Assembly: GCA_009829735.1 (NCBI GenBank)
Contig: CM020619.1
Span: 7,306,375-7,370,374, forward strand
Origin: Pyropia yezoensis
Lineage: Eukaryota; Rhodophyta; Bangiophyceae; Bangiales; Bangiaceae
Direction of reading: 5' to 3'
Length of the DNA stretch: 64,000 bases
The notes beneath the pieces were generated by a model. It was not told where the DNA came from. It saw only the letters and a program-made list of their open reading frames with translations, and searched no databases. Below, in pieces: positions 1-62,231 of this stretch; the stretch's first letter is position 1; the number at the start of each line of letters is the position of its first letter. The position numbers and the translations under genes are program-made.

Positions 1-16
1 CCTGCGGACAGAACTT

Positions 17-811
17 ATGTCCGTCATGCCCAGCTCCTCAAGTGGAGGCGCTGGGGAGGTGACGTCCTATTTGGAGCTCGTCAACTGGTTGTTGAGGGCC
101 ATGGTTGATGAAGCGGCGTTGGCTTCTCAAGTCGAGGAGTTTACGCAAGCCCATCAGGAAGAGGCGGAGGACGAGTTGTCCTTTGCGGAGCGAGTCCGTA
201 AGCTCAACAATCTTTGTGGGTTTCTTCATCCACAAGCTGTGGTGAAGAGTCGGTTTGTGGAAGGACTCCACTGGTCAGTCCGGATGGAGACCCGGGAGCA
301 TAACACTGCCCGGGCGACCCTGGCCGAGTTGGCTAGGTTCGCCTACCGCAGAGGCGAGGCCTACCGCAAGTTGCGGGAGGAACAACGCCAGGAGCGTCAG
401 GCCGAGTTGGCCAAGGAACGGGAAGAGGCGCGCCAGGCCAGAGAGTTGCGAGAGGCACGCCGAATCCGCAAGGAGAGGGTGGTAGCTGCCGTGGGAACTT
501 CCCAAGGTACCTCGTCGTCTTCCCCAGTTGGGAAGACCCCTCCGGGAACTGATCATCGGTGTTGGAACTGCAACTCCGATGGTCACTGGGCATATGATTG
601 CCCCAAGTTGAGTAAACGCATCCAAGAGCTTGTTAGGAATGCGAGTAAGAAGTCGGCTACGAACGAAGTGCGTTCACGCCGCGAGGGTGGGTCTCGACCA
701 GTGGTGGCGGTCGCCACACCCTCGACGGAGGGGGCGGACACGTTGTCCTCGGACTCGTCGTCGTCCCCTTCGCCCTCAGATTCGGACGCCAAGTCGGCGG
801 GAAACGAATGA
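17..811 (+). CDS. gag: Retrotransposon Gag, probably N-terminally partial
   Basis: 264 codons from the first ATG in the window. Residues about 50-110 look like the C-terminal half of a retrotransposon Gag capsid domain, then comes a long charged Glu/Arg-rich helix (about 115-160), a Ser/Pro linker and a CCHC zinc knuckle (Cys-x2-Cys-x4-His-x4-Cys, residues 182-195, bases 560-601), which in this family binds the RNA genome. The tail is Ser/Asp-rich. The capsid domain seems to lack its start, so the true N-terminus is probably upstream of base 1. The stop overlaps the pol start as ATGA. Confidence 0.8.
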   Translation: MSVMPSSSSGGAGEVTSYLELVNWLLRAMVDEAALASQVEEFTQAHQEEAEDELSFAERVRKLNNLCGFLHPQAVVKSRFVEGLHWSVRMETREHNTARATLAELARFAYRRGEAYRKLREEQRQERQAELAKEREEARQARELREARRIRKERVVAAVGTSQGTSSSSPVGKTPPGTDHRCWNCNSDGHWAYDCPKLSKRIQELVRNASKKSATNEVRSRREGGSRPVVAVATPSTEGADTLSSDSSSSPSPSDSDAKSAGNE

Positions 812-3800
812 CCGTTGGAGCTGGTCGTCCGAAGCTCCCAACGGCAGCCTCGGCCAAGTGGGCCAAGAGGACGAACCAACCGTGTCGGATACTGCGGCGA
901 CCTAAGGGAGTCCGCCCACCTCGGGTGGGACTTCCCAAGAACGTAAACCCACGTCGGGTCATCGCGGTGCTGACGGGTGAGAACTTCCAGGTGGCTGGAC
1001 GGGTGCAACTTGCCCCCGGCCGCGCCTGTTGTGTCCGTATCGTACTTGATACCGGGTCAGGAGCCTCCTTGATACGCAAGTCGCTATTACCAAAGGGGAT
1101 GAGGCTCCAACGCTGGAAGTCTAAAGCTGACCATCTGATCGATATCAATGGTGGGGTACTTCCCATCGTTGGTGCCGTGACCCTACCAACTCGGTTGGGG
1201 ACCCATGAGGTCGACGTGACCTATGGAGTAGTTGAGAATATATCGGTACCCCTGCTTCTGGGTACCCCTTATGTCGTAACACAAGTGCCTTTGATTTGTG
1301 GCCCTGAGTACTGGGTCAAGTTGATGAATGGGGAGACTATCCCCATCCTTGGTAAGGGAAAGTCTGTGGCTCCTGTGACAGTTTCACAGTCGAAGCCTGT
1401 TTGTTCTGTGAGGGAAGGGTTTACTGCTACTCTGCGTTTAGCCCGTAAAGTCATGTTGCCCCCCAACTCGGTGGCGCACGTGGATGTTGTAACTGATTAT
1501 GCGGGGAACGGGTTGGTGCACCCTAACCCCCGTCTTGCTCGCAAGCACCAAGTGCATGTTGCCCTTGGCACGATGGACTCCAAAGCCGGAGTCCCGTGGA
1601 GGATCCAGGTGATGAACCTGAGCTCGTCGCCCAAGTTCTTCAAGTCGGGGGCCAAGTTCGGCTATATCGACCAACACGAGGGACCGGTAGTAGCGGTCAC
1701 CCTCAGCGCGGGCGCAAGTAGCGACCCGAAGTCCGGAAAGGAGAAGCATCAAGCCAAGTCGGCCGCCTCTCCTCGGCCCCAGGTAAACATGGAGGGTGTT
1801 CCACCCAGGTTGAGGGTTCAAGTTGAACGCCTCTTGGACCAATATCACAAGTTGTGGGATGGTCAATTGGGACTCATGAGAGCTACCCAACACCGGATCG
1901 AGTTGAAACCCGGTGCGCCCCCTATACGCCAACAACCGTATAGGGGGGGACCCCGTTCAAGGGCCCTCGTTAAGGAGCAAGTTGCTCGCATGGAGGCCCT
2001 CGATGTGATCGAGGCCAGCAACGCCGAGTGGGCGAGTCCGGTGGTGATCGTCCCCAAAGTTGATGGGACCCCCCGGTTCTGTATCGACTACCGTAAGCTC
2101 AACGAGAGCACGGTGAAGGATAGTTATCCCCTACCTCGGATGGATGACTGTCTGGACTCTCTGGGGGAGGCAAACGTGTTCTCTACCCTGGACTGTAACG
2201 CGGGGTACTGGCAAATTCCCATTGCCCCGGAGGACAGGCATAAAACTACCTTTACCTGTCACTGTGGTACCTACCAGTGCAAGCGTCTACCGTTTGGCCT
2301 GTGTAACGCGCCGGCAACTTTCCAGCGCGCTATGGACATGATTCTGGCCGGAGTACGGTGGCAGATCTGTCTCGTGTACCTAGACGATATCATTGTGTTC
2401 TCCCGAAGTCCGGAGGAACACATTGGCCATCTTGGCCAGGTGTTCAAGCTACTTGCTGACGCCGGAGTGTCACTGAAGGCGAGTAAGTGCCACCTCTTCA
2501 CTCAAGAGGTGGAGTACTTGGGACATGTTGTCCGTCCGGGGCGTCTCAGTGTCAACGAGAAAAACTTGAGGGCCATCCGCAAGGCTCAGTACCCCCGGAC
2601 CCAGACCCAGATGAGGAGCTTCCTCGGGATGTGTAACGTGTACCGACGTTTCACTAAGGGCTTCGCCAAAGTGGCGAAGCCGTTGAATGAGTTAGTGAGC
2701 TCAACGCTACCGAAGAACCTGCCTCCCCCAAGTCGGGTGGAGCAGGAATCCTTTGAGACTCTTCGGGACCTTCTGCTGAAGCCCCCTATCCTGGCTATTC
2801 CCAGGTTGGGAGGCCACTACATCCTGGATGTGGACGCTAGCTACGACCAACTTGGTTGTGTGTTGCTTCAGCAACAGCCGGACAAGGAGTACTTGCCGGT
2901 GGGATACTTCAGCAAGGGGCTAAACTCGGCCGAGAAGAACTACGGAGTCACCGAGTTGGAAGGACTCGCAGTGGTATGGGCGGTGACGTCACTTCGTCAC
3001 TACCTAGAGGGTGAGAAGTTCCTCATCCGCTGTGACCACCGCGCGTTGCAGTTCATCTTCAAGACGGACTGTACGAACACTCGTCTCAACCGGTGGAGGG
3101 TGCGACTTGCACCCTTCAACTTTGATATTGAGTACCGACCTGGCAGGCAACATGCCCTTGCCGACGGCCTCTCTCGGGTACCTACCGAGGGACTGGACAC
3201 CACCCCAGTCGATGAGGACATCCCCATCGTGGGGGTAGTCACGCGCTCGGGTCAGGCGTTGAATCCCGAGGCGCCAGGGAACAAGAAGTACTTGCCCCTG
3301 TCCCTGGACGAAGTAGTGAAGGCCCAGGCCGAGGATCCCTTCTGCAAGTCGCAGAGGGATACCCTGGATACAGTGGCGGAGACGCGGTTCTTCCTGGGAG
3401 ACGATGGCCTCCTCATGAGGAGGGGGGTATTCCAGGGGACCGAACAACTTGTCGTCCCCGCATCCCTCAAGGACAGTATCCTTGAGAGGGAGCATAACGC
3501 TCCCACGGGTGGACACCTGGGGTCTAGTAAACTGTACCAGACCCTGAGGACCAGGTACTACTGGCCGTCCATGGTGGTGGACATCTACAGTTGGGTGGCT
3601 GCCTGCACAAGTTGTGCACAGAACCGTCTGATGGAACGGCGGCCTACTACGGCTATGCTATTGTTCCCGGCCAAGGAGCCCTTCGCCGCGTTGGCGATGG
3701 ACATCCTTGGGCCACTGCCAGTGACCGAGGAGGGCAACCAGTACCTCCTGGTCATCTGTGACCGCTTCACGAAACTTACGCGAGCGATCCCACTGGCAGA

Positions 3801-4791
3801 GATCACGGCCATGTCGGTCGTGTCAGCCTTCCTAGATCACTGGGTTGCCGCGTATGGCATTCCGGATAGTACACTATCGGACAATGGACCGCAATTTGCG
3901 TCTGTACTGTTTCAAGGAGTGCTGGATATGTTGGGGGTTAAGGCAAACTATGCCACCCCCTACCACCCACAAACTAATGGGCAGGTGGAGCGCTTCAACA
4001 AAACTATTGTTAGGCAGCTGCGCCATTATGTGAGTGAGCACGTGAAGACGTGGGACCAATACATTTCTATTCTGACCACTGCCTACAATTCGCAGGTTCA
4101 CTCATCTACCGGGGAAGTACCCCTCGCTTTTGTGACCCCCCGTCGCGTGCGGTCTATTGCCGTGCGGCGGCCGCTCCCAACTAGGGAGGATGGTGGCAGT
4201 ACGCCCACTCCTACTGAGAGTAAGGCGGAGTTCGCTGCTAGGCTTGAAAACCTCATCCCTAAAGTCAGGGCTGAGATGGACAAAGCACAAAAGCGCTACA
4301 AGCGTACCTTTGACAAAAAGGTGCGCAACGCCAAGCATGTCCCCGAGCAGGGTGACTGGGTATTGGTCCACTCACACACCCCAACTGGGGGTAAGTTGGT
4401 GTTCCAGACGAAGGGGCCGTACCAGGTCCTTCGTACTGATGGGCGGCGCTTCACCATCGAAAGTGACGATGGGGTCCGCACAGTGAACGGACAGGACGTG
4501 GTCAAAGTTGCACCACCGCCTGCAGGCGACCCAGCTTGGGCGCGTGCTTTGAAAACGTGGCGCCTGCCCTCGCTGCCTGCAGCCAAACAGGGCCCGCAGG
4601 AGTACGTGTTCGACAAGTTCATCGACCACGGCTGGGATGAGGATACTGACCGCCTCATGTTGAGGGTGCGTTGGTTTGGCTACAAAGCCAAGGATGATAC
4701 GTGGGAGTATGTGGAGGACCTTCCTGCTGAGAAGGTCCGGGCGTACTGTGCCCGGAACGAGATAGACCCTAACAGCCCTCCCTCAACGTGA
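808..4791 (+). CDS. pol: Retrotransposon Pol polyprotein (PR-RT-RNaseH-IN-chromodomain)
   Basis: A 1327-residue intact ORF. An aspartic protease has the active site DTGSGA at residues 81-86. The reverse transcriptase carries YLDD at 524-527. RNase H acidic residues are D676, E716 and D743. The integrase has a zinc-binding HHCC region starting at H896 and a catalytic triad D965, D1025, E1061, giving the DD35E spacing. A chromodomain-like module follows at about 1266-1312, which in chromoviruses steers insertion into marked chromatin. The ORF starts in the -1 frame relative to gag at an ATGA overlap (808-811), so expression is by reinitiation or -1 frameshifting; I see no clear slippery site. 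The absence of stops suggests a recent insertion. Confidence 0.95.
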   Translation: MTVGAGRPKLPTAASAKWAKRTNQPCRILRRPKGVRPPRVGLPKNVNPRRVIAVLTGENFQVAGRVQLAPGRACCVRIVLDTGSGASLIRKSLLPKGMRLQRWKSKADHLIDINGGVLPIVGAVTLPTRLGTHEVDVTYGVVENISVPLLLGTPYVVTQVPLICGPEYWVKLMNGETIPILGKGKSVAPVTVSQSKPVCSVREGFTATLRLARKVMLPPNSVAHVDVVTDYAGNGLVHPNPRLARKHQVHVALGTMDSKAGVPWRIQVMNLSSSPKFFKSGAKFGYIDQHEGPVVAVTLSAGASSDPKSGKEKHQAKSAASPRPQVNMEGVPPRLRVQVERLLDQYHKLWDGQLGLMRATQHRIELKPGAPPIRQQPYRGGPRSRALVKEQVARMEALDVIEASNAEWASPVVIVPKVDGTPRFCIDYRKLNESTVKDSYPLPRMDDCLDSLGEANVFSTLDCNAGYWQIPIAPEDRHKTTFTCHCGTYQCKRLPFGLCNAPATFQRAMDMILAGVRWQICLVYLDDIIVFSRSPEEHIGHLGQVFKLLADAGVSLKASKCHLFTQEVEYLGHVVRPGRLSVNEKNLRAIRKAQYPRTQTQMRSFLGMCNVYRRFTKGFAKVAKPLNELVSSTLPKNLPPPSRVEQESFETLRDLLLKPPILAIPRLGGHYILDVDASYDQLGCVLLQQQPDKEYLPVGYFSKGLNSAEKNYGVTELEGLAVVWAVTSLRHYLEGEKFLIRCDHRALQFIFKTDCTNTRLNRWRVRLAPFNFDIEYRPGRQHALADGLSRVPTEGLDTTPVDEDIPIVGVVTRSGQALNPEAPGNKKYLPLSLDEVVKAQAEDPFCKSQRDTLDTVAETRFFLGDDGLLMRRGVFQGTEQLVVPASLKDSILEREHNAPTGGHLGSSKLYQTLRTRYYWPSMVVDIYSWVAACTSCAQNRLMERRPTTAMLLFPAKEPFAALAMDILGPLPVTEEGNQYLLVICDRFTKLTRAIPLAEITAMSVVSAFLDHWVAAYGIPDSTLSDNGPQFASVLFQGVLDMLGVKANYATPYHPQTNGQVERFNKTIVRQLRHYVSEHVKTWDQYISILTTAYNSQVHSSTGEVPLAFVTPRRVRSIAVRRPLPTREDGGSTPTPTESKAEFAARLENLIPKVRAEMDKAQKRYKRTFDKKVRNAKHVPEQGDWVLVHSHTPTGGKLVFQTKGPYQVLRTDGRRFTIESDDGVRTVNGQDVVKVAPPPAGDPAWARALKTWRLPSLPAAKQGPQEYVFDKFIDHGWDEDTDRLMLRVRWFGYKAKDDTWEYVEDLPAEKVRAYCARNEIDPNSPPST

Positions 4792-4880
4792 GGGAAGGCC
4801 GAGCAACAGTGCCAAGAGAGTGCTTCAAGTCGAAGTGGTACGCAGAGTGGCTTTAAACTACAGCCCTAACCCTCACCCTC

Positions 4881-6845
4881 TCACAACAAAGGCAGCTGCC
4901 AACTAGGCACGCATGCTAGACTCTCCCACTCCACGGCCCTCGCCCTCACGTGGAGGCGACGGCGAGACCCACGCCGATAACGGTCTCCACTCGTTGGAAG
5001 GGGCGGCGGCTCCAAGTCGGAACCGTCGCGCCCCTCACGGTCGCGCAAGTGGCGCCGACCGTGGCTACTCTTCTGCCTGGTCTTGCGCGCAAGTTTGCGA
5101 CGCAGACGCTGGACAGACTCCGTCTCCGATGGGGTAGAGGACTCCGAGACGGAGTAAGACAACTCGTCTTCCGACACGGAGGGAGAGCGCCGCGAGTGAC
5201 GGCGACGACGGCGAGGAGGCGAGTATGCCCGGCTCGCACGACGCTTGCCACGCCCAAGTGGGGTTGGCTGGGGCATAATAGCCCCAATGCGAGCCAACTC
5301 GGCCGTCATAAACTCCGCCACCGACTCGCAACTCGCGGTCGCCACTGCAGTACGAACGCGCTCCTCAAGTTGAGGAGTCTCGGAACTTTGGAGGGTTGCG
5401 GTCGACGCGGCCAACCAGGAAATGGTGCGCACCAACGTGGTGATCATCATCTCTGAGGTTAGAGGCGTGGGCGGTAACACCAACTTGGGGTATACCGTCA
5501 GGAGGGTGGCCCCCAAGTTGGGAGACACCGGTGTGGATGACTCCACGGCCACGCTGATCGGGATGTTCCCGTGAGGCTGGAAAGGAACAGGAGGAAGCGG
5601 AGGGGCACGCCGAGGTGGCGGTACCCGGGTGTAACTGCGACCCCGACTTGGGGCCCCCGCAGTAGGTTGAGTCATATGGTCATCATATGAGGGCACAGCC
5701 ATAACTATGGGCTTATCCGGGGGTGGCGCAGTGTGACGATCCACCCCCGGGGCATACGGGTAGTCCCCGATGCCCAACCCCTCTCGTAGGACCACACGGC
5801 CGTCGTGAAGTTCACGAGCGACCCATACGAACTGGCGAAGTGCGCCATCGTCCTTGGGCCCCCGAGTGGGGCGGCGCAACTTGTGCTCAATGCTCTCCCA
5901 CTCGATAAACTTGTGGAGGCGGAGCATCTCCTCAAGTAGAGTGAGTTGTCCTGACGAGCACCCCTCAGCAACTAGCTGAGGGGTGAGCTGTTCCAAACCC
6001 TGGATGAGCCGGAGGGGGAGATGCCAGAGCATCCCCCGCCGCTGAACACATGACACCCAGGTCGACATGACCTCGAGGAGCCACTGGGTGGCCAACATGG
6101 CCCACACCAGATGATCAGGGCCAGCCGTCAACATGACGGAGCCGAAGTGGTCAAGCAACCGTGGCAACAATGCCGGGAACCCGTAGGGGACCTCAACTTG
6201 AGGCCACCACTCGGGCTTCTTCGGGTAGTATTGCTCCTTACTGGCAGCAGACTGCTGAGGAAACTCAAGTTGAGCCGAGGTCACCAAGTAGGGACCTCGC
6301 CGGAAGTCCTTCTCCATCCGCACATCAAAGTGATGAGTGTGCGGATCGGCCTCGTGAAGGTACGGGGGGCGAGTTGCCACCGCGTCCCAAGTGAAGGTCG
6401 GCAAGTCGCCGGGACCCGGGATAGTTCCCCCGCGGTCCACCATGGCCTTGGCCCGCTGCACGTCCTCGACCTCCTCGTCGTCCAGGAAGGCAAACTGGTC
6501 CGTCCTGAAGCCGGCAGGGAACCCGACCCTACGGGGATACTTCTCCCGTAGGCGGTCCCATACCCGACCCATCGCTGCGCCGAGTCGGCCACAGCGAAGA
6601 ACAGTCAACCCCTCCTCATACAGAGGCCAAGCGGGGTAAAACCACCGCCCCAAGGCCTCACGCGGGACAACTTGTCCCGCCTCCGGGGGAGATCCTGCCG
6701 TCAACCCAAAGCCGGGTGACGCGGGAGTCCCACCCCCCGGAGCGATCGCGGAGCCCCCGCCGGAAGTCCCGGCAGGCGCTGCACCGTAGGAGGTGTCCTC
6801 CATACGCTCATCGAGAGAGTCCGTCTCCACTCCCGGAGTCGCCAT
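4881..6845 (-). CDS. Long antisense ORF of the retrotransposon, function unknown
   Basis: 654 residues from an ATG at 6845; the frame stays open a further 57 codons upstream without another ATG. It lies tail-to-tail with pol, 89 bp away. The first two thirds look folded: Trp-rich and helical segments at about 80-360. A Pro/Ser-rich linker follows, then a strongly basic Arg/Ser region (about 545-654) like a nucleic-acid-binding tail. I do not recognise a family. Some plant gypsy elements carry an antisense ORF in this position, but similarity is not shown here. The composition is not low-complexity and the hairpin motifs of gag-pol continue through it, so it belongs to the same element. A capsid-like or regulatory role is only a guess. 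Confidence 0.6.
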   Translation of the reverse strand: MATPGVETDSLDERMEDTSYGAAPAGTSGGGSAIAPGGGTPASPGFGLTAGSPPEAGQVVPREALGRWFYPAWPLYEEGLTVLRCGRLGAAMGRVWDRLREKYPRRVGFPAGFRTDQFAFLDDEEVEDVQRAKAMVDRGGTIPGPGDLPTFTWDAVATRPPYLHEADPHTHHFDVRMEKDFRRGPYLVTSAQLEFPQQSAASKEQYYPKKPEWWPQVEVPYGFPALLPRLLDHFGSVMLTAGPDHLVWAMLATQWLLEVMSTWVSCVQRRGMLWHLPLRLIQGLEQLTPQLVAEGCSSGQLTLLEEMLRLHKFIEWESIEHKLRRPTRGPKDDGALRQFVWVARELHDGRVVLREGLGIGDYPYAPGVDRHTAPPPDKPIVMAVPSYDDHMTQPTAGAPSRGRSYTRVPPPRRAPPLPPVPFQPHGNIPISVAVESSTPVSPNLGATLLTVYPKLVLPPTPLTSEMMITTLVRTISWLAASTATLQSSETPQLEERVRTAVATASCESVAEFMTAELARIGAIMPQPTPLGRGKRRASRAYSPPRRRRRHSRRSPSVSEDELSYSVSESSTPSETESVQRLRRKLARKTRQKSSHGRRHLRDREGRDGSDLEPPPLPTSGDRYRRGSRRRLHVRARAVEWESLACVPSWQLPLL

Positions 6846-7020
6846 GGCTCTCCCCAAGTTGGGGAGAGACGTCCTTGCTATCGCGGCACGAGACCCGCCT
6901 CGAGTTGAGGGGGACTCGGATCGTGGGTAAACGGGTGGCCTCCCCAGCGTGGGGTGGCCCCGTGTAAGGTGAAGGAGAAGTGGTGGTGGTGGTGAGGTGT
7001 GAACCGAGGAGAGCAAGCTG

Positions 7021-7654
7021 CCAAGTGGGCAAGCTTGAGGAGAGGGGCGGCCAACGTGACCGCCTCCACATCCGCGTTACGTACTCAAGGGGGGACAGCA
7101 AGTCGCGTCCCCCCCAACGCCGAGACGTGCGTTTACGCACCCCCTCACAGGGCCGACCGGGTCGGTCGGAACTGAGGAGAGGGGAGTGTGGCAGTATTGA
7201 CCCCCAGGTAGGGGGCAACACGTGCCATGCAAGGGGCGGCAGGCCACTAGCCTGATCCGTTCCTCCCCCTGCATTTGGGTCCATATTCCCTAAGTTCGGG
7301 ATAGTTAGCTTAGTAGTAAATCCAACTTGGATTTGAGGGTGTTCTGCATTTATCGTCTTGAATTTTCGTGTGGCCCGGTGGGCAGGTGCTGGGGTGGGAG
7401 ATTCTGAGTGGGAGATTCTGAGTGGACCCTGGGGGGATAAGGGGAGGGACAGCGGGGCTTGGCCCTGCGTCCCCGTCCCGACCAAGAAACTGTTGGACCA
7501 CACACCATCTTCTTGTTTGTCCGTGGGGGGATTGCCCCACAACAGGGATAGAGTGTGTGCGACTTGCACTTCTTCCGGTTCCCCCGACACGGGAGGCAGC
7601 CCTCGCACACCGCCCCAACTTGGGTATTGTGTGTGCGAGTGGTTTTTGCCACAG
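7021..7654. other. Retroelement 3' spacer, possible LTR region
   Basis: No gene is visible. The stretch holds a purine-rich run (7173-7186), a 15-bp direct repeat of the type GTGGGAGATTCTGA at about 7397-7425, a 17-nt hairpin motif (7318-7334) and a 9-bp inverted repeat (7602-7610 with 7631-7639) enclosing another motif at 7614-7624. Promoter or LTR functions are plausible, but without the 5' LTR they cannot be tested. Confidence 0.4.
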
Positions 7655-10600
7655 TTGTGGCCGCCAACGCCGCCACCCCGCCCACACCCTCCGGCTCCGT
7701 TGCGGCCGCCAAGCCCACCACCCCGCCGGCATCGCCGACGCTGTTGTGGCCGCCAACGCCGCCACCCCGCCCACACCCTCCGGCACCGTTGCGGCCGCCA
7801 AGCCCACCACCCCGCCGGCATCGCCGACGCTGTTGTGGCCGCCAATGCCGCCACCCCGCCCACACCCTCCGGCACCGTTGCGGCCGCCAAGCCGACCACC
7901 CCGCCGGCATCGCCGACGCTGTTGTGGCCGCCAACGCCGCCACCCCGCCCACACCCTCCGGCACCGTTGCGGCCGCCAAGCCCACCACCCCGCCGGCATC
8001 GCCGACGCTGTTGTGGCCGCCAACGCCGCCACCCCGCCCACACCCTCCGGCACCGTTGCGGCCGCCAAGCCCACCACCCCGCCGGCATCGCCGACGCTGT
8101 TGTGGCCGCCAACGCCGCCACCCCGCCCACACCCTCCGGCACCGTTGCGGCCGCCAAGCCCACCACCCCGCCGGCATCGCCGACGCTGTTGTGGCCGCCA
8201 ACGCCGCCACCCCGCCCACACCCTCCGGCTCCGTTGCGGCCGCCAAGCCCACCACCCCGCCGGCATCGCCGACGCTGTTGTGGCCGCCAACACCGCCACA
8301 CCGCCAACACCCTCCGGCACCGTTGCGGCCGCCAAGCCCACCACCCCGCCGGCATCGCCGACGCTGTTGAGGCTGTCTACCCTGCCACCCCGCCCACACC
8401 CTCTGGCACCGTTGCGGCCGCCAAGCCCACCACCCCGCCGGCATCGCCGACGCTGTTGTGGCCGCAAACGCCGCCACCCCACCCACAACCTCCGGCTCCG
8501 TTGCGGCCGCCAAGCCCGCCACCCCGCCGGCATCGCCGACGCTGTTGAGGCTGTCTACCCTGCCACCCCGCCCACACCCTCTGGCACCGTTGCGGCCGCC
8601 AAGCCCACCACCCCGCCGGCATCGCCGACGCTGTTGTGGCCGCCAACGCCGCCTCCCCGCCCACACCCTCCGGCTCCGTTGCGGCCGCCAAGCCCACCAC
8701 CCCGCCGGCATCGCCGACGCTGTTGTGGCCGCCAACGCCGCCACCCCGCCCACACCCTCCGGCACCGTTGCGGCCGCCAAGCCCACCACCCCGCCGGCAT
8801 CGCCGACGCTGTTGAGGCTGTCTACCCTGCCACCCCGCCCACACCCTCCGGCACCGTTGCGGCCGCCAAGCCCACCACCCCGCCGGCATCGCCGACGCTG
8901 TTGTGGCCGCCAACGCCGCCACCCCGCCCACACCCTCCGGCTCCGTTGCGGCCGCCAAGCCCACCACCCCGCCGGCATCGCCGACGCTGTTGTGGCCGCC
9001 AACGCCGCCACCCCGCCCACACCCTCCGGCACCGTTGCGGCCGCCAAGCCCACCACCCCGCCGGCATCGCCGACGCTGTTGTGGCCGCCAACGCCGCCAC
9101 CCCGCCCACACCCTCCGGCACCGTTGCGGCCGCCAAGCCCACCACCCCGCCGGCATCGCCGACGCTGTTGTGGCCGCCAACGCCGCCACCCCGCCCACAC
9201 CCTCCGGCACCGTTGCGGCCGCCAAGCCCACCACCCCGCCGGCATCGCCGACGCTGTTGAGGCTGTCTACCCTGCCACCCCGCCCACACCCTCCGGCACC
9301 GTTGCGGCCGCCAAGCCCACCACCCCGCCGGCATCGCCGACGCTGTTGAGGCTGTCTACCCTGCCACCCCGCCCACACCCTCCGGCACCGTTGCGGCCGC
9401 CAAGCCCACCACCCCGCCGGCATCGCCGACGCTGTTGTGGCCGCCAACGCCGCCACCCCGCCCACACCCTCCGGCTCCGTTGCGGCCGCCAAGCCCACCA
9501 CCCCGCCGGCATCGCCGACGCTGTTGTGGCCGCCAACGCCGCCACCCCGCCCACACCCTCCGGCACCGTTGCGGCCGCCAAGCCCACCACCCCGCCGGCA
9601 TCGCCGACGCTGTTGTGGCCGCCAACGCCGCCACCCCGCCCACACCCTCCGGCACCGTTGCGGCCGCCAAGCCCGCCACCCCGCCGGCATCGCCGACGCT
9701 GTTGTGGCCGCCAACGCCGCCACCCCGCCCACACCCTCCGGCTCCGTTGCGGCCGCCAAGCCCGCCACCCCGCCGGCATCGCCGACGCTGTTGTGGCCGC
9801 CAACGCCGCCACCCCGCCCACACCCTCCGGCACCGTTGCGGCCGCCAAGCCCACCACCCCGCCGGCATCGCCGACGCTGTTGTGGCCGCCAACGCCGCCA
9901 CCCCGCCCACACCCTCCGGCACCGTTGCGGCCGCCAAGCCCACCACCCCGCCGGCATCGCCGACGCTGTTGTGGCCGCCAATGCCGCCACCCCGCCCACA
10001 CCCTCCGGCACCGTTGCGGCCGCCAAGCCCACCACCCCGCCGGCATCGCCGACGCTGTTGTGGCCGCCAACGCCGCCACCCCGCCCACACCCTCCGGCAC
10101 CGTTGCGGCCGCCAAGCCCGCCACCCCGCCGGCATCGCCGACGCTGTTGTGGCCGCCAACGCCGCCACCCCGCCCACACCCTCCGGCACCGTTGCGGCCG
10201 CCAAGCCCACCACCCCGCCGGCATCGCCGACGCTGTTGTGGCCGCCAACGCCGCCACCCCGCCCACACCCTCCGGCACCGTTGCGGCCGCCAAGCCCGCC
10301 ACCCCGCCGGCATCGCCGACGCTGTTGTGGCCGCCAACGCCGCCACCCCGCCCACACCCTCCGGCACCGTTGCGCCCGCCAAGCCCCCCACCCCGCCGGC
10401 ATCGCCGACGCTGTTGAGGCTGTCAACCCTGCCACCCCGCCCACACCCTCTGGCTCCGTTGCGGCCGCCAAGCCCACCACCCCGCCGGCATCGCCCACGC
10501 TGTTGTGGCCGCCAATGCCACCACCCCGCCCACACCCTCCGGCACCGTTGCGGCCGCCAAGCCCACCACCCCGCCGGCATCGCCGACGCTGTTGTGGCCG

Positions 10601-21699: not shown

Positions 21700-23845
21700 A
21701 GAGGGCGTTTCTAGTGCAGCCTGGGTTTCACGGGCTCCCTCGTCTCCTCATTGGCCGACGAAGATCAATTTGATCGCTCTGAGAGGCAATTCTGTCACCT
21801 CATTGGCTCAAGAGCGAGGTATCAGGTCTCTTGTTCCTTTGGGCCACAGAAAGTTGAAGAATGTACACGTGTTCACCTGCACCAGTTGTCGCGGCCGTGT
21901 GGGGCAGGTGAGAATAGAAAAGATTGGAAAAGATTGCATAGTGGAGAGTCAACCGTTCCTCAAAGAACGGCTGCCGGAACGAAACACCACACCTTGGTGA
22001 AGCGCCACCCACCCCAGCCCATCCCCTCGCACAGCGCCCAAAGGCCACCACCCGCGCCCGGCGCACCCCCCAAAGGCTCACTACCTGCCACACCCGGGGT
22101 TGGCGAGGTCAAACAGGGGTGGGCCCGGCGCAGGGGGCATCTTTTCATGTCTCGGGGGAAGTGCGGTCCCCCCATGACTGTGACTCTACCACCTGTGACG
22201 GATGTACGGTCCTCTGCATCTCGGAGGCTTTTCGACCCTTATAGACACCTGCAGACGCTTCCCCGGGGCATCTCAGAGAGGTCTGAAAGTGCCCGGGGTA
22301 ACAGCGACAGGAATGGAGATATTGATGGGGGAAGGGCTGTCACCTTCAGACCTCGGCGGGGGGGGGGTTGAAGGGGGAGGCGTCAAGGCGACGGGAGGGG
22401 GGGGGAGGGGTGGAAATGTCGTGCTAGGGGTTGGGTAGATTCAATCGCGGGGACACACTCATGCGCAAGATCCGGGTGGCCGGCCTGCGCCCGACCGTCC
22501 CTCACGGCCTCTGTGGCGTGGGGTGAAAATTGGGGTCATGAAAAACCCCAATGTTCTTCTCAGCCACTCACAGGGCTGCACGTTTCTTTGAAAAGGCTAG
22601 TGTAAAGAGACCCAGGCTGCACACCTTAACTTTAGGCGTGGAGGACGGTCGTCCTGCCACGATCTTGCCTGTGGTCGGCTCTGGCGACACACTGGATGGA
22701 GCAGTTCCCAGTCGTCTTGGCGCTGTGCTCCAGGCTCCCCGCGGGTGGCCCCCACCACGAACCCCCCTCCGTCCACTGTGCTCCTCTGTCCCTTCGCAAT
22801 ATGTAGCGCTTGTCCGGCCGTGGCATTCTTCCAGCCACTCTCCACTTCGGGCGTCAACGGGCAGTGTGCCGGCCTTTGCCGTGGCGTGACCGCAGGTCGG
22901 CCCATCATCCTCGCCGGCCATTTGACGGCCGGCGGACGGTGACCGCCACCAGTGAGCAGCTGCCGCGTTGGGGGGGGACTGGTTGGTGATGGAGGCTGGG
23001 TGTGCGCCCGACCGGCTGCCTGCGACCCCCTCCCTCCCTCCCCGGGCCAGTCGTCGTGGCCATCGCTGCGGCAGGAACGTGGGTGGACGCCGCCACGAGA
23101 GAGCATGGCTGCGAGGTCGCGTCCCCCTCTGCCCCCTTCCTATCCCCCTCCGCCCAAGCTCGTCTCGGTACAATCGTGAGCCGGCTGGTGGCTACGGGTC
23201 TGCCTGCCTTGGCTCTGCACTTCCCCCCCCCCCGAACGGTCGGGATTCCCGGTATTGGTGCGTGGTGACGCGGCAGGAGGCGCCCACAGGGAGTCAGAGG
23301 CGGGCCACGATTTCCACGGCGTCGCGGCCGTGGCGCCCTGCGCCCGCCTTGGCCGCCTGGCCCCTCTGCGGAATCCCGGGCGATGGACGCGCGGGCACTG
23401 CCACGGGTCGTGCACGACGTGGGCGTCCCGTGCGGCATCGCGTTGGCTGTGCGCCCATGCCGCGGCTGCCGGCCCCGGCTCGCCATTGAGGTAGCCGTGG
23501 GGGGCGGTGGCGACCTTGGTCGCACAACCGGTAGCCTCCGCCGTCGGTGCGTGCGGGTCGCGCCCGCGGGACGCGGCGAGTATTGGAGTTGTCTGGCTTT
23601 TCTCAGCCTGACGTACCCCTCCCCGCCCCCCCGGTGCGTTTACTCTGCTGTGCCTGGCCGTGACGGCGCCACTACTTCAGGGGCTGCCGTCTTTGTGGGA
23701 GCCAGCTGAGTCTTCCGCTGTGCTTGTCGGGCGTCCTCAGTTTTTAGGCGTTCAGCATCTCGCTGCGGAGCGGGGGGGCAGGGCTCCTTTCCAGGGGTTC
23801 CCCCCGTCGTCGGTACAGCCGCCAGTGCGAAGGGGTGTACGTGCA
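21700..23845. other. Long intergenic stretch without a supported gene
   Basis: No ORF here has a recognisable domain. The part 21700-22000 is less GC-rich. A small hairpin ATTGGGG...CCCCAAT lies at 22529-22552. The 3' end must hold the promoter and 5' UTR of the NAD kinase gene; no TATA box is seen. Confidence 0.4.
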
Positions 23846-25354
23846 ATGGCGTCCCTTTCTTCCGAGGTGGGCGGCCCCCCTGCGACCGGGAAAGGCTGCC
23901 CCACCACGCCCGCGCGGTCTGTGCTGGTTGTGTTTTCTCCCCACTCGGCTACTGCGGCGGCTGCGGCTACCGCCCTCGTCCGCCTCCTTGTCAACGAATT
24001 GTCGCTACCCGTAGCGGTTGAGGTTGCCCCTCACACCCGCCGCCTTCAACGGACGCACCCATCGGGGGTGGTGCGCTTTGGCACTCCTGCGGCCCCCGCG
24101 TGCGGGGTGGTGGTGGCCTTTTGTCTGGGTGGCGATGGGACCGTCCTCCATGTGGCGGGGCTGTTTGCGGGCGCCGTGCCGCCCGTTGTGGCTCTCAGCT
24201 GCGGATCCCTGGGCTTCCTCGCACCCTTCCAACGTGATGCGATGTGGCCCCTGCGGGTGCGCCGTATTGTCATTGCGCTCTGGGCCGACAGCGCCGCACG
24301 TGGGGTGGCCGATGCCAATGGAATGGCTGGGGAAGCGTCAGCTGGAGGTCCCTTCTCCCTGGCGGCGGGCCTAACGTTCACGGCGCGCATGCGACTGGCG
24401 TGTGATGTTGTGTGGGCGGGCGGGGAGGCGTGCCGCGACTGGGCCGACGCGGACCAGGTGCGGGACGGGCGCCCCCCTGCGGCGGGGATGTCTACCTCTT
24501 GCCTATCGTCGACAGGCTCATGGTCCTCGTCATCGTCGGCGTCGTCCATGCCAGCGGCGGCCGTGCCGACTGCTGCTGCCATCACCGGTGCCACTAGCAG
24601 GCTGTCCCTTCGGGGTAGGCCCGCGCCGCTGCTAACGCCCGCTGCCGCCCAGGTGGCCCCGACGTCAATGCAGGTGCTGAACGACGTGGTTATTGACCGT
24701 GGCGCTGCTTCTTCTCTGACGAACCTGGAGGTCTATGCCGACGGCGTCTTTGTGACGCGTGTTCAGGCCGACGGCCTGATCTTGGCCACGCCTACGGGCT
24801 CGACCGCCTACAGCGCCGGCGCGGGCGGAGGGCTTGTCCACCCATCTGTAGCGGCCATCCTGCTCACCCCTGTCTGCCCACACGCCCTGAGTTTTCGCCC
24901 GGCGGTGCTCCCGAGCACTATCCGCCTGCGGGTGGTGGTGGCAGCAGCGTCGCGGGCTTCGGCGGTCGTGTCGTTTGATGGGCGATCGCGGGTGACGCTC
25001 AGTGCGGGCGACGGTCTCGCCGTGACTGCCAGTCGCTGGCCCGTGACAACGGTGGATCTGGCGGGGGGCGCCGCCGACTGGTTCGGTGCCCTCAGCAGCT
25101 GCCTCAGGTGGAACGAGGGGCGCCCGGCGCAAAAGGCGTTAGAGCTGGGCTGCAGCGCGGGGGATGATGTTGGGGAGGAGGCGGAGCTGCCGCTGAGCGA
25201 AGGCGCTGCGGACAGCGAGGCGGAATTCGAGACGGAGGCGCTTCTCCCTGAGCCGCCTGTAGCGCCGACTGCCCCGGTGGAGGGGACTGGAGCAGCCAAA
25301 GCTGACCGTGTGGCGGCCTCACCCGTGGCGGTGACAGGCGTGGACTTTTTTTGA
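23846..25354 (+). CDS. NAD kinase (ATP-NAD kinase family)
   Basis: 502 residues from the ATG at 23846; the same frame is open further upstream but has no earlier ATG. NAD kinase phosphorylates NAD to NADP with ATP. The family's GGDGT nucleotide/metal motif is at 24128-24142 (residues 95-99), followed by a CGSLGFLAPF stretch. The NE-type motif reads LNDVVIDRG, with Asp where Glu is common. The GSTAYS motif (from residue about 319) precedes SAGAGGGLVHP. Between GGDGT and the NE-type motif is a Ser/Ala-rich insertion of roughly 100 residues, and the C-terminus is acidic. The N-terminal ~30 residues could be a targeting sequence but are not clearly one. It converges with the kinase gene downstream. 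Confidence 0.9.
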   Translation: MASLSSEVGGPPATGKGCPTTPARSVLVVFSPHSATAAAAATALVRLLVNELSLPVAVEVAPHTRRLQRTHPSGVVRFGTPAAPACGVVVAFCLGGDGTVLHVAGLFAGAVPPVVALSCGSLGFLAPFQRDAMWPLRVRRIVIALWADSAARGVADANGMAGEASAGGPFSLAAGLTFTARMRLACDVVWAGGEACRDWADADQVRDGRPPAAGMSTSCLSSTGSWSSSSSASSMPAAAVPTAAAITGATSRLSLRGRPAPLLTPAAAQVAPTSMQVLNDVVIDRGAASSLTNLEVYADGVFVTRVQADGLILATPTGSTAYSAGAGGGLVHPSVAAILLTPVCPHALSFRPAVLPSTIRLRVVVAAASRASAVVSFDGRSRVTLSAGDGLAVTASRWPVTTVDLAGGAADWFGALSSCLRWNEGRPAQKALELGCSAGDDVGEEAELPLSEGAADSEAEFETEALLPEPPVAPTAPVEGTGAAKADRVAASPVAVTGVDFF

Positions 25355-26214: not shown

Positions 26215-28254
26215 TCACGGCACACCGTCTGTGCTGCCGTCGCCCGAGTCAGACGCCCCCCTCAAGTCAGCCCGCCGCCGGGACAGTGCACGCTGCCCCG
26301 CTGGGCTGCCATCCGCAACGGGCACGGGGCGGCCGTCGCCCTCCTCCCGCTTGCGGCGCACCCCCCGAGCGGCGCCTTGCGTGGAGCCCAAATCGGGCGA
26401 CAAGGACCGCAGAGACACGCTGCGCGTCAAACAGCGGCGGGGTGGACAAGGCCGCCCAGGGGTGGTGGGCGCGGTGTAGAGCGGGCCCAGGCGGCAGGTG
26501 GCAGCCATGAATGCGGCGACCAGGGCAGCGGTGCCAGCGCCAACCGACCGGGCCAGATCTTCGGCAGCGGCAAGCGCGCGGGTCAGACCATTGCCATCCT
26601 CACCATCACAGCCAGACGTGCTGGACGCAGCGTGCCCACCCGGGGGCATCGCGCGTATCACCGCGTCTAGGGTGTCGAGGGCGGCCCGCATCGACAGCCG
26701 ACGGTCAGGATCCTTGCACAGCATGCGACGCAAAAGAGAAACGAGCCCGGCGGGCACAGCCGCCCACTCGCGGCCAGTAAACGTTGGCTCTTCCGTCGTG
26801 ATGCGGCGGCCAAGCGCAGTCATGCCGCCAGGCGTGACGGGTGACCCGAACGGTAGTCGGTGGGCCACCAGCGCGTACACAACAACGCCCGCCGCCCACA
26901 CGTCAGCCGACCGTGGGTCATAGGGCTGTCGCATCACCAGCTCGGGTGCCGCGTAGGCCGCCGTGCCGACGGGGTTGTGCAGCCGAACTCCTGACGTCCG
27001 TGACGAACGCGGTGCGTCGGGCATGGGGGTGGACGGCGCCGACAATACGGGGCTTGCCTCCCCTGCGCTCGGCGCGTGGGCGTACTCCCCGACAACGTCC
27101 GCGGGCGCGCCGCATGCACCCCTTTCGCCTGCGGGCGCTGCGGTCCCACGGTCACCGCAGCCACGCGCAGCGCTCTGTACAAGCGACGGAGCAGCACGTG
27201 GCCCGGTGGGCGGAGTCTGCAGCCCAGAGGGGATCGCCTCGACCGTGATGGCCGCAACCCCATTGGAAGACGAGTCGTCGCACCGACCAGCAGCAACAGG
27301 GGTGTGAGGAGTCGCGCGCGGCCGCCGTCGCCAAAAGCACAGCCCAAAATCAATGAGCCGTACATCCACAACGTCACGGTAAGGGGCAGCTGCTTCGGCT
27401 GAGATATCTGCCACATCCGCCAAATTTACGGGCTCTCGGCATGCCGATGCATCAGGTACTAGGGCATCCGCGGGTGCCATCGCCCCGTCCACCACCGTCG
27501 CACCTACCGGTGGTGGCTCTGGCCGCACCTCGGCATCAGCGGGTGACAGATGCGACCTCGAGCCCAAAACGGCAGCGGCCGACGCATGCTCCTCGCCTAC
27601 CGGCGCAGCGAGCATCACATTCTCCAGCTTCACATCATTGTGGCACACACCCATGGAGTGGCACTCAGCCAGCGCAGCAAGCAGCTGGCGGGCCACCTCC
27701 AGCAAGAGGGGCACCCCCCGCTCCCCCCCGCCCAGCGCCCATTGAAGCAACGTTCCACCTTGCAGCAGCTCTGTCACCAAAAACACGCGCTCCGCATCCT
27801 CCACCACTTCCAGCAGACTGACCGCAACCCCCCCCCCCAACTGCGTCAGGCGCTTGAGCGTCAGCACCTCACGGGCAAGCGCGGCTCGGCCGCGGCCAGA
27901 CAGGCACGCCTTGGCCACCGCCTTGACCGCCACGGGCACCCCGTCCGCGCGACGCACCGCCTCCAGCACGTGGCTGTTGGTGCCCCGCCAGAGGGTGCGG
28001 CCGAGCTGATAGGCATTGGCAAGGACGTCATAGCCAGGGGGCGGGGAGGGCATTGGCGAGCAAGGGCTCCCCCCGCCTCCCCCGCCACGACCTCTCGAAG
28101 CACCGCCCCCGCCGCCGCCGCCACCGCCACCATCACCGCCACCGCCGGTCGGCCCCCGCCAACAGCCACCCAGCGGCGCCGATAGGGTGGCGCTGGTGGC
28201 TTCCTCCGCCTCAGTTAGAGAGCGGGTAAATGGTCGCCGCGCGCTAGCGACCAT
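26215..28254 (-). CDS. Serine/threonine protein kinase with large inserts
   Basis: 679 residues from an ATG. The kinase domain begins near residue 81. Landmarks are the ATP lysine in VAVK (K111), a catalytic loop HNDVKLEN (H205, D207, N212) where HRD is usual, DFG at 302-304, AAPEL at 435-439 and a late KDPDRRLSMRAALD. The glycine loop is poor (GRTLWRGTNSHV). Low-complexity inserts lie between the catalytic loop and DFG (about 215-290) and between DFG and APE (about 310-425), so the activation loop is very long. The N-terminus is Gly-rich. The overall pattern suggests the CAMK/AMPK-like group, which is inference. Asn in place of the HRD arginine would affect control by activation-loop phosphorylation. 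Confidence 0.85.
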   Translation of the reverse strand: MVASARRPFTRSLTEAEEATSATLSAPLGGCWRGPTGGGGDGGGGGGGGGGASRGRGGGGGGSPCSPMPSPPPGYDVLANAYQLGRTLWRGTNSHVLEAVRRADGVPVAVKAVAKACLSGRGRAALAREVLTLKRLTQLGGGVAVSLLEVVEDAERVFLVTELLQGGTLLQWALGGGERGVPLLLEVARQLLAALAECHSMGVCHNDVKLENVMLAAPVGEEHASAAAVLGSRSHLSPADAEVRPEPPPVGATVVDGAMAPADALVPDASACREPVNLADVADISAEAAAPYRDVVDVRLIDFGLCFWRRRPRATPHTPVAAGRCDDSSSNGVAAITVEAIPSGLQTPPTGPRAAPSLVQSAARGCGDRGTAAPAGERGACGAPADVVGEYAHAPSAGEASPVLSAPSTPMPDAPRSSRTSGVRLHNPVGTAAYAAPELVMRQPYDPRSADVWAAGVVVYALVAHRLPFGSPVTPGGMTALGRRITTEEPTFTGREWAAVPAGLVSLLRRMLCKDPDRRLSMRAALDTLDAVIRAMPPGGHAASSTSGCDGEDGNGLTRALAAAEDLARSVGAGTAALVAAFMAATCRLGPLYTAPTTPGRPCPPRRCLTRSVSLRSLSPDLGSTQGAARGVRRKREEGDGRPVPVADGSPAGQRALSRRRADLRGASDSGDGSTDGVP

Positions 28255-31200
28255 GGCGGGCAGAGGCGGGCAGAAGCGGGCAGAGGAGCAACTAAGGGGG
28301 GGCGGTCAGGGCGAGGAGGGGAGGGAGCGACGGCGGCGAACCCCTCGCGCGCCGCGAGCGGCAGCTCAAGCGCGGGCGGGGTGGCGGCCGAGCCTCCCCA
28401 TGCGCACCCGCAAGGACGGCTCCGCGGCGAGGGACACGGCGGCCGTAGCCGCACGTGACAGGGGGGCGGGGAGGAGGGAGGCGGAGAGAGGGCGGGGGGG
28501 GGAGGAGGATGGGGCGCAGCACGGCCAACCCTGCACAGCGGCGCTGCCGCGTCGGATGCGGCACGCCGCCTGCCACCTGCCCCACCTCCCTGCTGCCGAA
28601 GACGCCGGGGGGCCAGGGAGCGAAGCGTCCGCCGAGGCGCGGAGCCGCAGCTCCCGGTTGCCGCGCCCGCGAAGGGCGGGCACGCACGCGCACGCCCAGC
28701 CGCCGCGCTGGTCGCCGACGAGCCCGCCGGCACCGTCGGGAGGGGGGGGCGAGCGACACACAGCCCCGGCGGCAGCCGGGGCACGCACGGCGCCGCTGGC
28801 TGCCTCGGCCGACGTGACAGAGGCGGCCGGCGGGCAACACAGGAAAAGGCTGGGGGGGGGGGTCGTGGCGCGGAATGCCCTGAGGTCCCCCAGTTTACTC
28901 CCGCCGCGCCGGTGCAGTCCCATGGGGGGGGGCGTGACCGCGGCCAGACGGCCAGGCAGATGGGCGGGCTTGTCGGGGGGGTCAGGACGGCGGCGGCATA
29001 ACCCCTCGGGCATGCATTCCGCAGTGCATACACTGTGTTTGAGGTGTGACCCCCCCCCCATCCCCCTCTGGAGCTGGTCCACGCCAGAGACCAACCGACA
29101 TGCATGACAGTTTGGGATTCGCCGCCTCCAGGGGGCCGGCCGGGCGTCCGTCAGGCCACCCCCCCTCGCTGCCCACACCTCTTCCCTGCCGCTTTCCGCT
29201 GTATCTAGTGCGCCCCTCCCTTTCGGTGCTGGAGGACCGTGCACGGCTGCCTGGGCGCCCTCCACACCCCCCTCTCCCCCGTGTCTGCGCGTTTGAAAAG
29301 CATTGATGATGGGCGCTGTCAATGGGAGAGACTGTGAGAGCCTACCTGACGAGGCGGCGGATGGCCAGCAACCAATCACACGGCAGCTACATGCCGTCGT
29401 GACGCAGATGTGGTCGTTTCTCAGACACGTCATACGCTTCGGGCAACTCTCACAGACCATTTTCAGAGACAGATTCTCATTAGCGAAGCTCCTCTGTGAA
29501 GCAGATGCCCTTGTTGTCGCGCTAACGCCAATTGATTGGTCCCCGTGTTTGCAATATCAAATTGCTCCTGGCCACACGTTGATTCGGTTTGGCTTGCGTG
29601 GCTCGATGCGGGACCCGTCCGTGGTGTTCAGGCGGCAGCCTGCTGGCGTAGAGGGGGCGGCCGTCGCAGGGCGGGGGACGGCCGCCAGTGGGTGGGTACG
29701 GCAGCTGCAGGGGTGGCGGCGCGGCCGCCGCGGCGGTGGTGCCTGCTAGTGTCCCGCCGTCGCGGCGGGCATGGTCCGGCTCGCCCCGCCCTGGCCGGCG
29801 GGGCTCTCATTGATTACGTTGTTTCGCGCTGACGGATGTGGTGGTGCTGGCGGCAGCTGCGGCTGCGGCGGCAGCAGCTGCGGCGCTGGCGGCGGTGGAG
29901 ACGGCGGGGGGTAGGGGGAGAGGGGAGCACCCACCACCACTCCAGCCACCACAGCCACGCCCATGCCCACCATGGGCATCCGCACGCAGTAGCCGTAGTT
30001 GCCGCCCTCCGCCCACCCTGCCCGGCCAAGCGCCACAATCGAGCAGTGGCTGCCCCCCCCCCCCCCCCCCCACCCCCGCCCACCCCCCCAAGCAAGCACA
30101 GGCTATCCCGCCGCGACGCCGCCGCCGACTGCGCCGCGACCGACCCGCGGCGGCCCGACCACCGCCACTGCCACGCTAGCCGGCGGGCGGTGGGGGAGGC
30201 GGCGCGGGAGGGGCTCGGGGGGGGGGGGGCCCCCGCCGGTTGCCGCTGCCGCCCGCCGGCGGGCTGCCGGCGCCGTCGTCGCCGCCGGCGCAGCGGGGGG
30301 GGGTTTGGGGGGGAGCGTCCGCCGGCCGCACCCGCCGCCGCTGGGGGTGACGCTGGCGAGCCGCCGGCGGGGGGCGGTGCCGAGCGGCAGGCGGCCGGCC
30401 CCCATGTGGAGCGCAAAGGTGAGCCATGTCTCGGCACGCCGCCTCACCGTCAACACTGTCTGCGCCCGCGGATGTAGGCGCACGCAGGCGACATGGGTCG
30501 CCAGCAGCACCACCTTCTCCGTCAACGCGAAACAATGTCAGAATGTTTCATGGAATATATGAATCATGAGAGGCCAAAATCAAACATTCCAAAAGCCTCT
30601 TAATCAAAACGAAAAACTCGTGTGTGCATGATACCCGGGCCACACGCAAGGCCGCATATGAAAATATTTCGTATAAAACGAAAGAATAAAAAGACTGCTA
30701 GAAAGAGTCCAGTATGTTTTCATGCCTCCACTCGCAAACATTTCCAGGCTCTCGAACAAGTGCCACGCGACAGGTCCTGCCACGGCACACCAGGCCAAGC
30801 CCCCCCTTGGACCTGAGCCCGTCGGAAACCCCCCCCCCCGCACTCCACCGCCGTCGTCGTCGGTACCTGTCCTCACGACGACGCCGCCCGCCGCCCCGCG
30901 TTGGTCGTGCCCCCCCCCGTGTTGGCCGCGGCCCTGCGGACGACGCCGCCCACTATCCCGACGTCACCCTCCGCCTCCCCGTGCCTGCCATCCACCCCTC
31001 CCGTGCTGGCCATCAACCCCCCGTGGCGGCCACCCACCCTCCCGTGTTGGCGCCGGCCCTCCTGACCTCGCCGCCCACCCTCCCGACGTTGCCGCCCGCC
31101 ATCCCGTCGTGCTCGTCGACCCGCCCGATTTGTCGGCGGCCGTGTCGTCCACGCCGCCCACCCTCTCGACGACGCCAGCCGCCACCGCGTGGTGGCCGTC

Positions 31201-37524: not shown

Positions 37525-37532
37525 TATAAATA
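37525..37532 (+). promoter_or_regulatory. TATA box, TATAAATA
   Basis: A perfect TATAAATA in GC-rich DNA, 130 bp before the ATG at 37655, which fits a start of transcription near 37555 and a 5' UTR of about 100 bases. Confidence 0.7.
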
Positions 37533-39009: not shown

Positions 39010-39038
39010 TTGTCCTGACACGGTTGTGGTCACGTGAG

Positions 39039-62181: not shown

Positions 62182-62231
<50 letters not shown>

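Follow-up and report, generated by a model that had tools for sequence, protein, structure and literature searches.

Dispersed hairpins with a shared A-S-T loop core in a Ty3/gypsy retrotransposon of Pyropia yezoensis

Genome-scale ordered RNA structure (GORS) is a term used for RNA viruses, and Ty3/gypsy long terminal repeat (LTR) retrotransposons that carry an antisense open reading frame (ORF) are a known type of element. How LTR retrotransposons select their own RNA is, in our judgement and to our knowledge, poorly understood. The case for dispersed packaging signals has so far been made chiefly for RNA viruses and hepatitis B virus, the described examples including MS2, satellite tobacco necrosis virus (STNV), parechovirus and the RGAG loops of hepatitis B virus (PMC6281560). 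Perfect inverted repeats occur in the coding sequences of Nematomorpha mitochondrial genes, to which reasoning of a conversion type has been applied (PMC6649704); stems can arise and persist through template switching (PMC8794818), and switches across the centre are known to invert the loop (PMC8604942). Here we report on a 64,000-nucleotide stretch of the P. yezoensis genome (contig CM020619.1, positions 7,306,375 to 7,370,374; referred to throughout as the window), the start of which falls inside a Ty3/gypsy element carrying dozens of short, perfectly paired hairpins with a common loop core. In the open-access literature that we searched we found no description of such an array in an LTR retrotransposon.

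A preliminary description of this DNA had listed 15 odd-length palindromes centred on AAGTT or AACTT (together AASTT, S being G or C). Leaving the centre base aside, all 15 are exact, and a sixteenth, TCGTGAAGTTCACGA at 5803-5817, had been overlooked; positions 1-7700 hold 26 odd palindromes with arms of at least 5, and 16 of these are AAGTT/AACTT-centred. The AASTT palindromes are a subset of a wider class, which is defined by an A-S-T trinucleotide placed over a stem beginning at offset 3. Between positions 1 and 7657 there are 62 such hairpins, each with a perfect stem of at least three pairs and arbitrary sequence on an N-A-S-T-N loop with A at -2 or T at +2 (67 under a laxer rule). By core they comprise 16 AASTT, 33 AAST-notT and 13 notA-ASTT, so that A stands at -2 in 49 of the 62; the asymmetric cores (AAGTC, AAGTG, AACTA and others) had gone unnoticed, as had the other loop classes of sister families described below. 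Stems range from 3 to 11 pairs and the closing pair is C-G in 47, G-C in 11 and A-T in 4 hairpins. The arms have no sequence in common; what the hairpins share is the A-S-T loop core. They are dispersed over gag, pol, the antisense ORF and the LTR, with the S base falling 9, 8 and 8 times in the three frames of pol, and some are nested in longer stems (7602-7639 in the LTR, and 5480-5521). A further 5 hairpins, among 18 cores, lie in the 1 kb to the left of the window.

The association between core and stem is strong. Three perfect pairs at offsets 3-5 flank 73 of 279 A-S-T trinucleotides in the element, compared with 10 of 791 from 10.8 kb on, and within the element the paired cores number 62 of 145 when A is present at -2 or T at +2 and 11 of 134 when neither is. 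The palindromic cores GAGTC, TAGTA and CAGTG have a stem in only 1 of 53 cases. In the preliminary description none had been noticed in the other 56 kb; this holds for AASTT palindromes, of which the remaining 56.3 kb contain none, but not for the wider class, since 5 of 278 cores beyond 7.7 kb have three perfect pairs, which is approximately the chance level. In the GC-rich part of the window at 57000-64000, stems of 5 on loops of 1 and 3 number 35 and 36, above most other loop sizes (raw counts, taken without shuffles).

That chance, codon usage or base composition explains the hairpins is a notion we dismiss with near certainty, as the preliminary description had anticipated from a rough estimate. 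Stems of at least 4 pairs on a 5-base loop number 108, compared with 34 ± 6 in dinucleotide shuffles. When codons were shuffled among synonymous positions (500 shuffles per ORF), the 25 hairpins of at least three pairs in pol fell to 1.9 (maximum 6), the 10 in the gag part to 1.3 (maximum 5) and the 22 in the antisense ORF to 1.2 (maximum 5), so over the element the same codons do not give a similar number. For AASTT palindromes with arms of at least 5, pol has 5 against a shuffled mean of 0.17 (maximum 2) and the antisense ORF 7 against 0.32 (maximum 2); only the 2 palindromes of the short gag part (mean 0.18) are, taken alone, within reach of the shuffles, whose maximum there is also 2. The palindrome scan, the core counts and both kinds of shuffle thus argue against chance, and for pol and the antisense ORF the codon shuffles refute it. 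Protein constraint was likewise considered as a cause and rejected: stems are commoner at variable codons (7.4%) than at conserved ones (2.1%), and the protein of the element deviates from its relatives no more at conserved columns (2/17 compared with 58/531). These results fit selection and mutation alike.

The hairpins are also maintained between copies of the family. We compared eight loci (L040, L041, L043, L065, L069, L071, L072 and L081) with the window as the reference; they are about 96-97% identical in DNA where this was measured, and L081 is 95% identical at the protein level. Stems differ from the window at 19 of 2176 sites (0.87%), compared with 1208 of 31655 (3.8%) outside hairpins. 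At third codon positions of pol, 2 of 459 stem sites differ, compared with 613 of 8223 elsewhere. Taken as distinct columns, stems differ in 17 of 415 and the remainder in 509 of 5506 (p 0.00015). Within the loop, the A-S-T core differs at 9 of 798 positions in hairpins and 36 of 911 in stemless cores, and the outer A and T of AASTT at 0 of 118, compared with 16 of 207 for the free loop base. Each of the 16 palindromes was compared in 4 to 34 copies, and of the 250 site-by-copy observations this gives, 243 show a perfect hairpin, so the symmetry is present in the other copies as well. The suggestion that symmetry, and not a fixed sequence, is what is kept is therefore borne out by strong constraint on stems at synonymous sites.

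Arrays of this kind are not peculiar to one family. The comparison loci, one or a few for a given motif variant or domain hit, were hand-picked and do not amount to a census; percentages in this paragraph are tblastn identities to the pol of the element over the parts retrieved. Several sister Ty3/gypsy families carry comparable arrays with loops of their own, whereas most other loci examined carry no array. L075 (61%) has 31 tetraloop stems of at least 5 pairs in 4 kb where 5 are expected, its TA-centred tetraloops carrying A as the third loop base 21 times and T as the second 15 times among the 31. Within L073/L076-L080, a group with about 40-53% identity across the main pieces, L076 and L078 have 50 and 37 tetraloop stems compared with about 3.6 expected; of the 50 in L076, 38 are closed by G-C, and the loops lean towards R-Y-R-H (G-RYRH-C tetraloops). 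L084 (65%) has loops of 3-8, with ACTC in 8 and AGTT in 3 of the 42 listed, and because some of its hairpins have A-S-T centres the core is not strictly confined to the family of the element. L085 (59%) has loops of 3 and 5, and those of L082 (44%) are broadly spread in size. Stems of at least 5 pairs on loops of 3-9 are not in excess in L070 or L074 (both 45%) or in L083 (51%), L070 having 4 stems of at least 7 pairs on loops of 3-5 where 1.2 are expected, and each of the 30 loci L009-L038 has at most one A-S-T hairpin; among them L010 has 10 pentaloop stems compared with 2.5 expected, without an A-S-T core, and is possibly a further loop class. Taken together, dense, family-specific and maintained hairpin arrays exist in this genome. 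A search of viral_contigs and genome_contigs for DNA of the relatives P0003-P0012 (about 55-68%), in which the array might have been followed into other species, found none.

In the L076-L080 group, stems differ at 3.4% of sites compared with 7.9% outside, and in the L076 group every class of change is about twofold lower in stems. The preliminary description had proposed looking for compensatory changes in the arms, and these are seen in the L076-L080 group, where 18 of 26 pairs changed on both sides are still Watson-Crick (one third would be expected at random; the copies are related and the events non-independent), but not in the family of the element itself, as we describe below.

Tentatively, and at somewhat short of an even chance, we favour the possibility that the hairpins act in RNA and are read by a protein which the element itself encodes, most likely Gag. 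The hairpins would form in the plus-strand genomic RNA, and this RNA-binding protein would recognise the stem-presented loop whatever the sequence of the stem; Gag, the candidate reader, carries a CCHC zinc knuckle. Many weak sites might then mark the RNA as self and lead to its assembly or packaging, in the manner of the dispersed packaging signals of some RNA viruses. The difference in loop class between families would arise because each Gag reads its own RNA among the many competing elements in one nucleus. Extended to co-resident Ty3/gypsy families, this idea becomes a loop code of self-recognition, in which dozens of hairpins per family, with a loop length and core of their own (A-S-T pentaloop, TA-centred tetraloop, G-RYRH-C tetraloop, ACTC/AGTT loops), are read by the family's own Gag so that its own RNA is packaged, some families being without the code or having lost it; we regard this wider proposal as possible but doubtful. 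Of the three suggestions made in the preliminary description, stem-loops with five-base loops fit best, scars of template switching are a serious rival, and target sites find no support.

The polarity of the asymmetric cores is relevant to the question of which molecule acts. AAST-notT outnumbers notA-ASTT by 33 to 13 (binomial p 0.0045), by 19 to 9 in gag-pol (p 0.09) and by 12 to 3 in the antisense-ORF region (p 0.035), and this plus-strand polarity, being the same in both regions, may point to genomic rather than antisense RNA. The mRNA of the antisense ORF is disfavoured as the acting molecule, as the polarity in its region matches that of gag-pol. Kissing between AGT and ACT loops was also considered and set aside, since it would probably not transfer to the RYRH tetraloops of the L076 group. 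Plus-strand polarity speaks, in addition, against the improbable alternative that the hairpins act as single-stranded DNA in the complementary DNA (cDNA), where they could offer sites to nucleocapsid, RT or strand transfer, and we know of no reason why cDNA should require some 60 hairpins. A tendency to exclude G-T pairs is shown by hairpins of DNA too, which counts in favour of that alternative, as do the partial reverse-complement symmetry of the cores and the equal folding of both strands.

RNA folding was computed in 100-nt segments, covering no more than the first 4.2 kb of any locus, and compared with dinucleotide shuffles. The plus strand of the element lies at -5.4 ± 0.7 kcal/mol per 100 nt relative to shuffles, and the corresponding values are -7.9 for L075, -6.3 for L084, -6.1 for L076 and -4.8 for L078 (together 4.6 to 7.9 below shuffles); L082 is 2.8 to 3.4 below (plus strand -3.4) and L085 -1.9 ± 0.9. 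L070, L074, L083, L011 and a Helitron in the window show no folding beyond shuffles (about -1 to +1). So large an excess along the folded region is what would be expected if the array were genome-scale ordered RNA structure without a specific reader, acting as a shield against small RNAs, nucleases or double-stranded RNA sensing, with the loop preference a side effect of stability; the location of some stems inside larger structures and the GYRA-like tetraloops of one family fit this as well. The A-S-T core, the scarcity of TAGTA, CAGTG and GAGTC cores and the separate loop class of each family nevertheless exceed what stability needs, and we know of no especial stability of TA-centred tetraloops. 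We consider this explanation quite unlikely.

Several observations weigh against recognition of RNA hairpins by Gag. Folding energy is equal on the plus and minus strands within error in the array families, and the skew of AAST over ASTT is also present in non-hairpin cores (40 compared with 21; Fisher p 0.54). The site counts given for the copies are summed over related copies and hence non-independent, and as distinct columns the A-S-T core differs in 9 of 150 compared with 509 of 5506, which is not significant (p 0.2). The lone A or T of asymmetric cores differs at 12 of 210 positions (strict core rule), no better than background. In the family of the element only one pair has changed on both sides, and its pairing was lost. 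G-U pairs are not favoured over A-C in the stems of the element (38 compared with 40 at offsets 3-6), single internal mismatches are G-U in 3 and A-C in 5 cases, and changes in the L076 group give G-U 131 and A-C 191 times, with the caveat that stems of 4-6 pairs offer little room for G-U. Lastly, L076 has 28 perfect six-pair stems compared with 3-5 in control loop sizes and 29 with a single mismatch compared with 13-18, this control having been made on L076.

It is because G-U is not favoured, and because perfect stems predominate in the L076 group, that template switching is a serious rival. A nascent strand, probably that made by the RT of the element, would fold back and copy itself, converting quasi-palindromes into perfect hairpins that are later repaired in the same way, and function would be unneeded; the loop class would follow from what the RT of each family prefers in geometry and sequence. 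In favour of this reading, both loop orientations occur, and the perfect coding palindromes of Nematomorpha mitochondria offer a parallel (PMC6649704). Arrays have so far been seen in reverse-transcribing elements, the Helitron having no folding excess and the rest of the window no AASTT palindrome (for the genes of the window, from raw counts without shuffles). On the other hand, the A-S-T core changes about 3.5 times less than a stemless core (not significantly so as distinct columns), which conversion of the arms does not predict, and several loci with related RTs have no hairpins. Loop inversion is missing too: in the L076-L080 group, to which this count is confined, 3 of 382 differing loop comparisons could represent it, all at one site where one substitution suffices. 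On balance we think conversion alone somewhat unlikely. We note that selection and conversion can act together: perfect stems may come from conversion, and those with the right loop may be retained through selection.

The element has RT, RNase H and integrase in that order, together with a CCHC Gag and an LTR (Table 1). Its gag frame extends leftward beyond the window, and the upstream sequence is present in L041; a match to the Chromo domain in pol (PF00385, E 0.00096, 19.5 bits) is under the cut-off of 25.1. The antisense ORF protein has a single match, 97% identical, among 7996 candidates scored, and an arginine/serine-rich stretch in its C-terminal part. Because neighbouring LTR ends are spaced 8906 and 8909 bases apart (two places), the full element is probably about 9.4 kb long, with roughly its first 1.7 kb outside the window. 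Copies of the family are abundant and recent: at least 150 places are 100% identical to a 170-aa RT query, most of the retrieved family loci share more than 99% identity with the window, and 1660 places match the LTR-end pattern. The LTR is followed by TTTGGTGGAGCAGCAGGGGA in 7 of the 10 LTR-end places shown, and this is the probable primer-binding site region.

Three of the seven copies L002-L008 (L003, L005 and L008) have a further copy of the family as their right flank, and nested self-insertion may be common. Such self-nesting is compatible with the idea that the integrase targets the element itself, with the loop as target-site duplication between arms that form a palindromic target, as are the published weak palindrome preference of LTR elements (PMC6911290) and the resemblance of the 5-base loop here and 4-base loops elsewhere to presumed duplication lengths. 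None of 11 right flanks of the family (a small number) begins with NASTN and the arms have no common sequence, so we hold this idea to be very improbable. A protein site in double-stranded DNA is rejected because the arms share no sequence: a protein that reads sequence cannot explain arbitrary symmetric arms.

Table 1. Positions in the window of the element's parts, the 16 AASTT palindromes and the hairpins with asymmetric cores.
Feature	Position	Strand	Remarks
gag C-terminal part, CCHC zinc knuckle	17..811	+	PF00098 26.1 bits, cut-off 20.8; 10 A-S-T hairpins
pol (RT, RNase H, integrase)	808..4791	+	PF00078, PF17917, PF17921, PF00665 above cut-off; 25 A-S-T hairpins
Antisense ORF, 711 aa	4881..7016	-	Pfam: no match; 22 A-S-T hairpins
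3' LTR, ends TGTGGCA...TGCCACA	7187..7653	+	matches second LTR in L008; LTR ends seen in several loci
CCGC-AAGTT-GCGG	364..376	.	perfect in 4/4 copies
TGGG-AACTT-CCCA	492..504	.	perfect in 2/4 copies, weakest site
GTTC-AAGTT-GAAC	1816..1828	.	perfect in 34/34 copies
CAC-AAGTT-GTG	1846..1856	.	perfect in 33/34 copies
GAGC-AAGTT-GCTC	1975..1987	.	perfect in 33/34 copies
ACC-AACTT-GGT	2846..2856	.	perfect in 33/34 copies
TGCAC-AAGTT-GTGCA	3604..3618	.	perfect in 31/32 copies
CTCCTC-AAGTT-GAGGAG	5361..5377	.	perfect in 9/10 copies
CCC-AAGTT-GGG	5512..5522	.	perfect in 10/10 copies
TCGTG-AAGTT-CACGA	5803..5817	.	perfect in 10/10 copies; the sixteenth
CCTC-AACTT-GAGG	6191..6203	.	perfect in 8/8 copies
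CTC-AAGTT-GAG	6264..6274	.	perfect in 8/8 copies
GCGGGAC-AACTT-GTCCCGC	6662..6680	.	perfect in 7/7 copies
CTCTCCCC-AAGTT-GGGGAGAG	6848..6868	.	perfect in 7/7 copies
AAATCC-AACTT-GGATTT	7318..7334	.	in LTR; perfect in 7/7 copies
CCC-AACTT-GGG	7614..7624	.	in LTR, within larger stem 7602-7639; perfect in 7/7 copies
46 further A-S-T hairpins, asymmetric cores (33 AAST-notT, 13 notA-ASTT)	36..7624	+	at least 3 perfect pairs
CCTC-AAGTG-GAGG	36-48		asymmetric-core example
AGGAC-GAGTT-GTCCT	168-182		asymmetric-core example
GTCTTCCC-CAGTT-GGGAAGAC	517-537		asymmetric-core example
AGGGTGC-GACTT-GCACCCT	3097-3115		asymmetric-core example
CACCCCTCAGC-AACTA-GCTGAGGGGTG	5959-5985		asymmetric-core example

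The LTR is followed at once by an 89-bp tandem satellite, which runs from 7654 to beyond 10500 with 45 register copies in 12 kb, the copies shown from 7672 on being 91-100% alike. Farther right are host-type genes at 23660-25354 and 26215-28254 (NAD kinase and protein kinase) and the Helitron, in the region 30722-46711 (Helitron_like_N, PIF1), of which what looks like a second, partial copy, judging from matching ORF lengths, lies about 7.7 kb downstream.

One genome here provides natural replicates, in the form of related families with different loop classes and families without any, so that the question can be put to a direct test. Should reverse transcription instead have produced the hairpins, they would show in a strong and regular form how template-switch mutation shapes coding sequence, and would bear a family-specific signature. 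Both outcomes would be informative, and hairpin arrays would be useful for sorting element families.

Among known systems, Ty3/gypsy elements with an antisense ORF share with this element the Gag-Pol order, the LTR and the extra minus-strand ORF, but the element differs in its hairpin array and in an antisense protein with one near-identical match only. The inverted repeats of Nematomorpha are likewise perfect, lie within coding genes and are actively maintained, although they reach 284 bp, whereas the stems here are of 3-11 pairs, carry a loop core and occur in retrotransposons. Quasi-palindrome correction, or template-switch mutation, also yields perfect stems and paired changes; unlike its products, the element has a loop core that appears conserved, and no loop inversion was seen in the L076-L080 group. 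As in GORS, folding energy is far below that of shuffles along the coding region (for the element, its first 4.2 kb in the window), but the structure resolves into regular hairpins with one main loop size and core per family. Dispersed packaging signals differ in that the element has perfect stems without G-U preference, that several families of one genome each have their own loop class, and that reading by Gag is here something we infer. Nevertheless, the element resembles them in having many short stem-loops along the genome that share one recognition motif and overlap coding sequence, and in an array beyond chance with variable stems, which is conserved between variants while other sites change.

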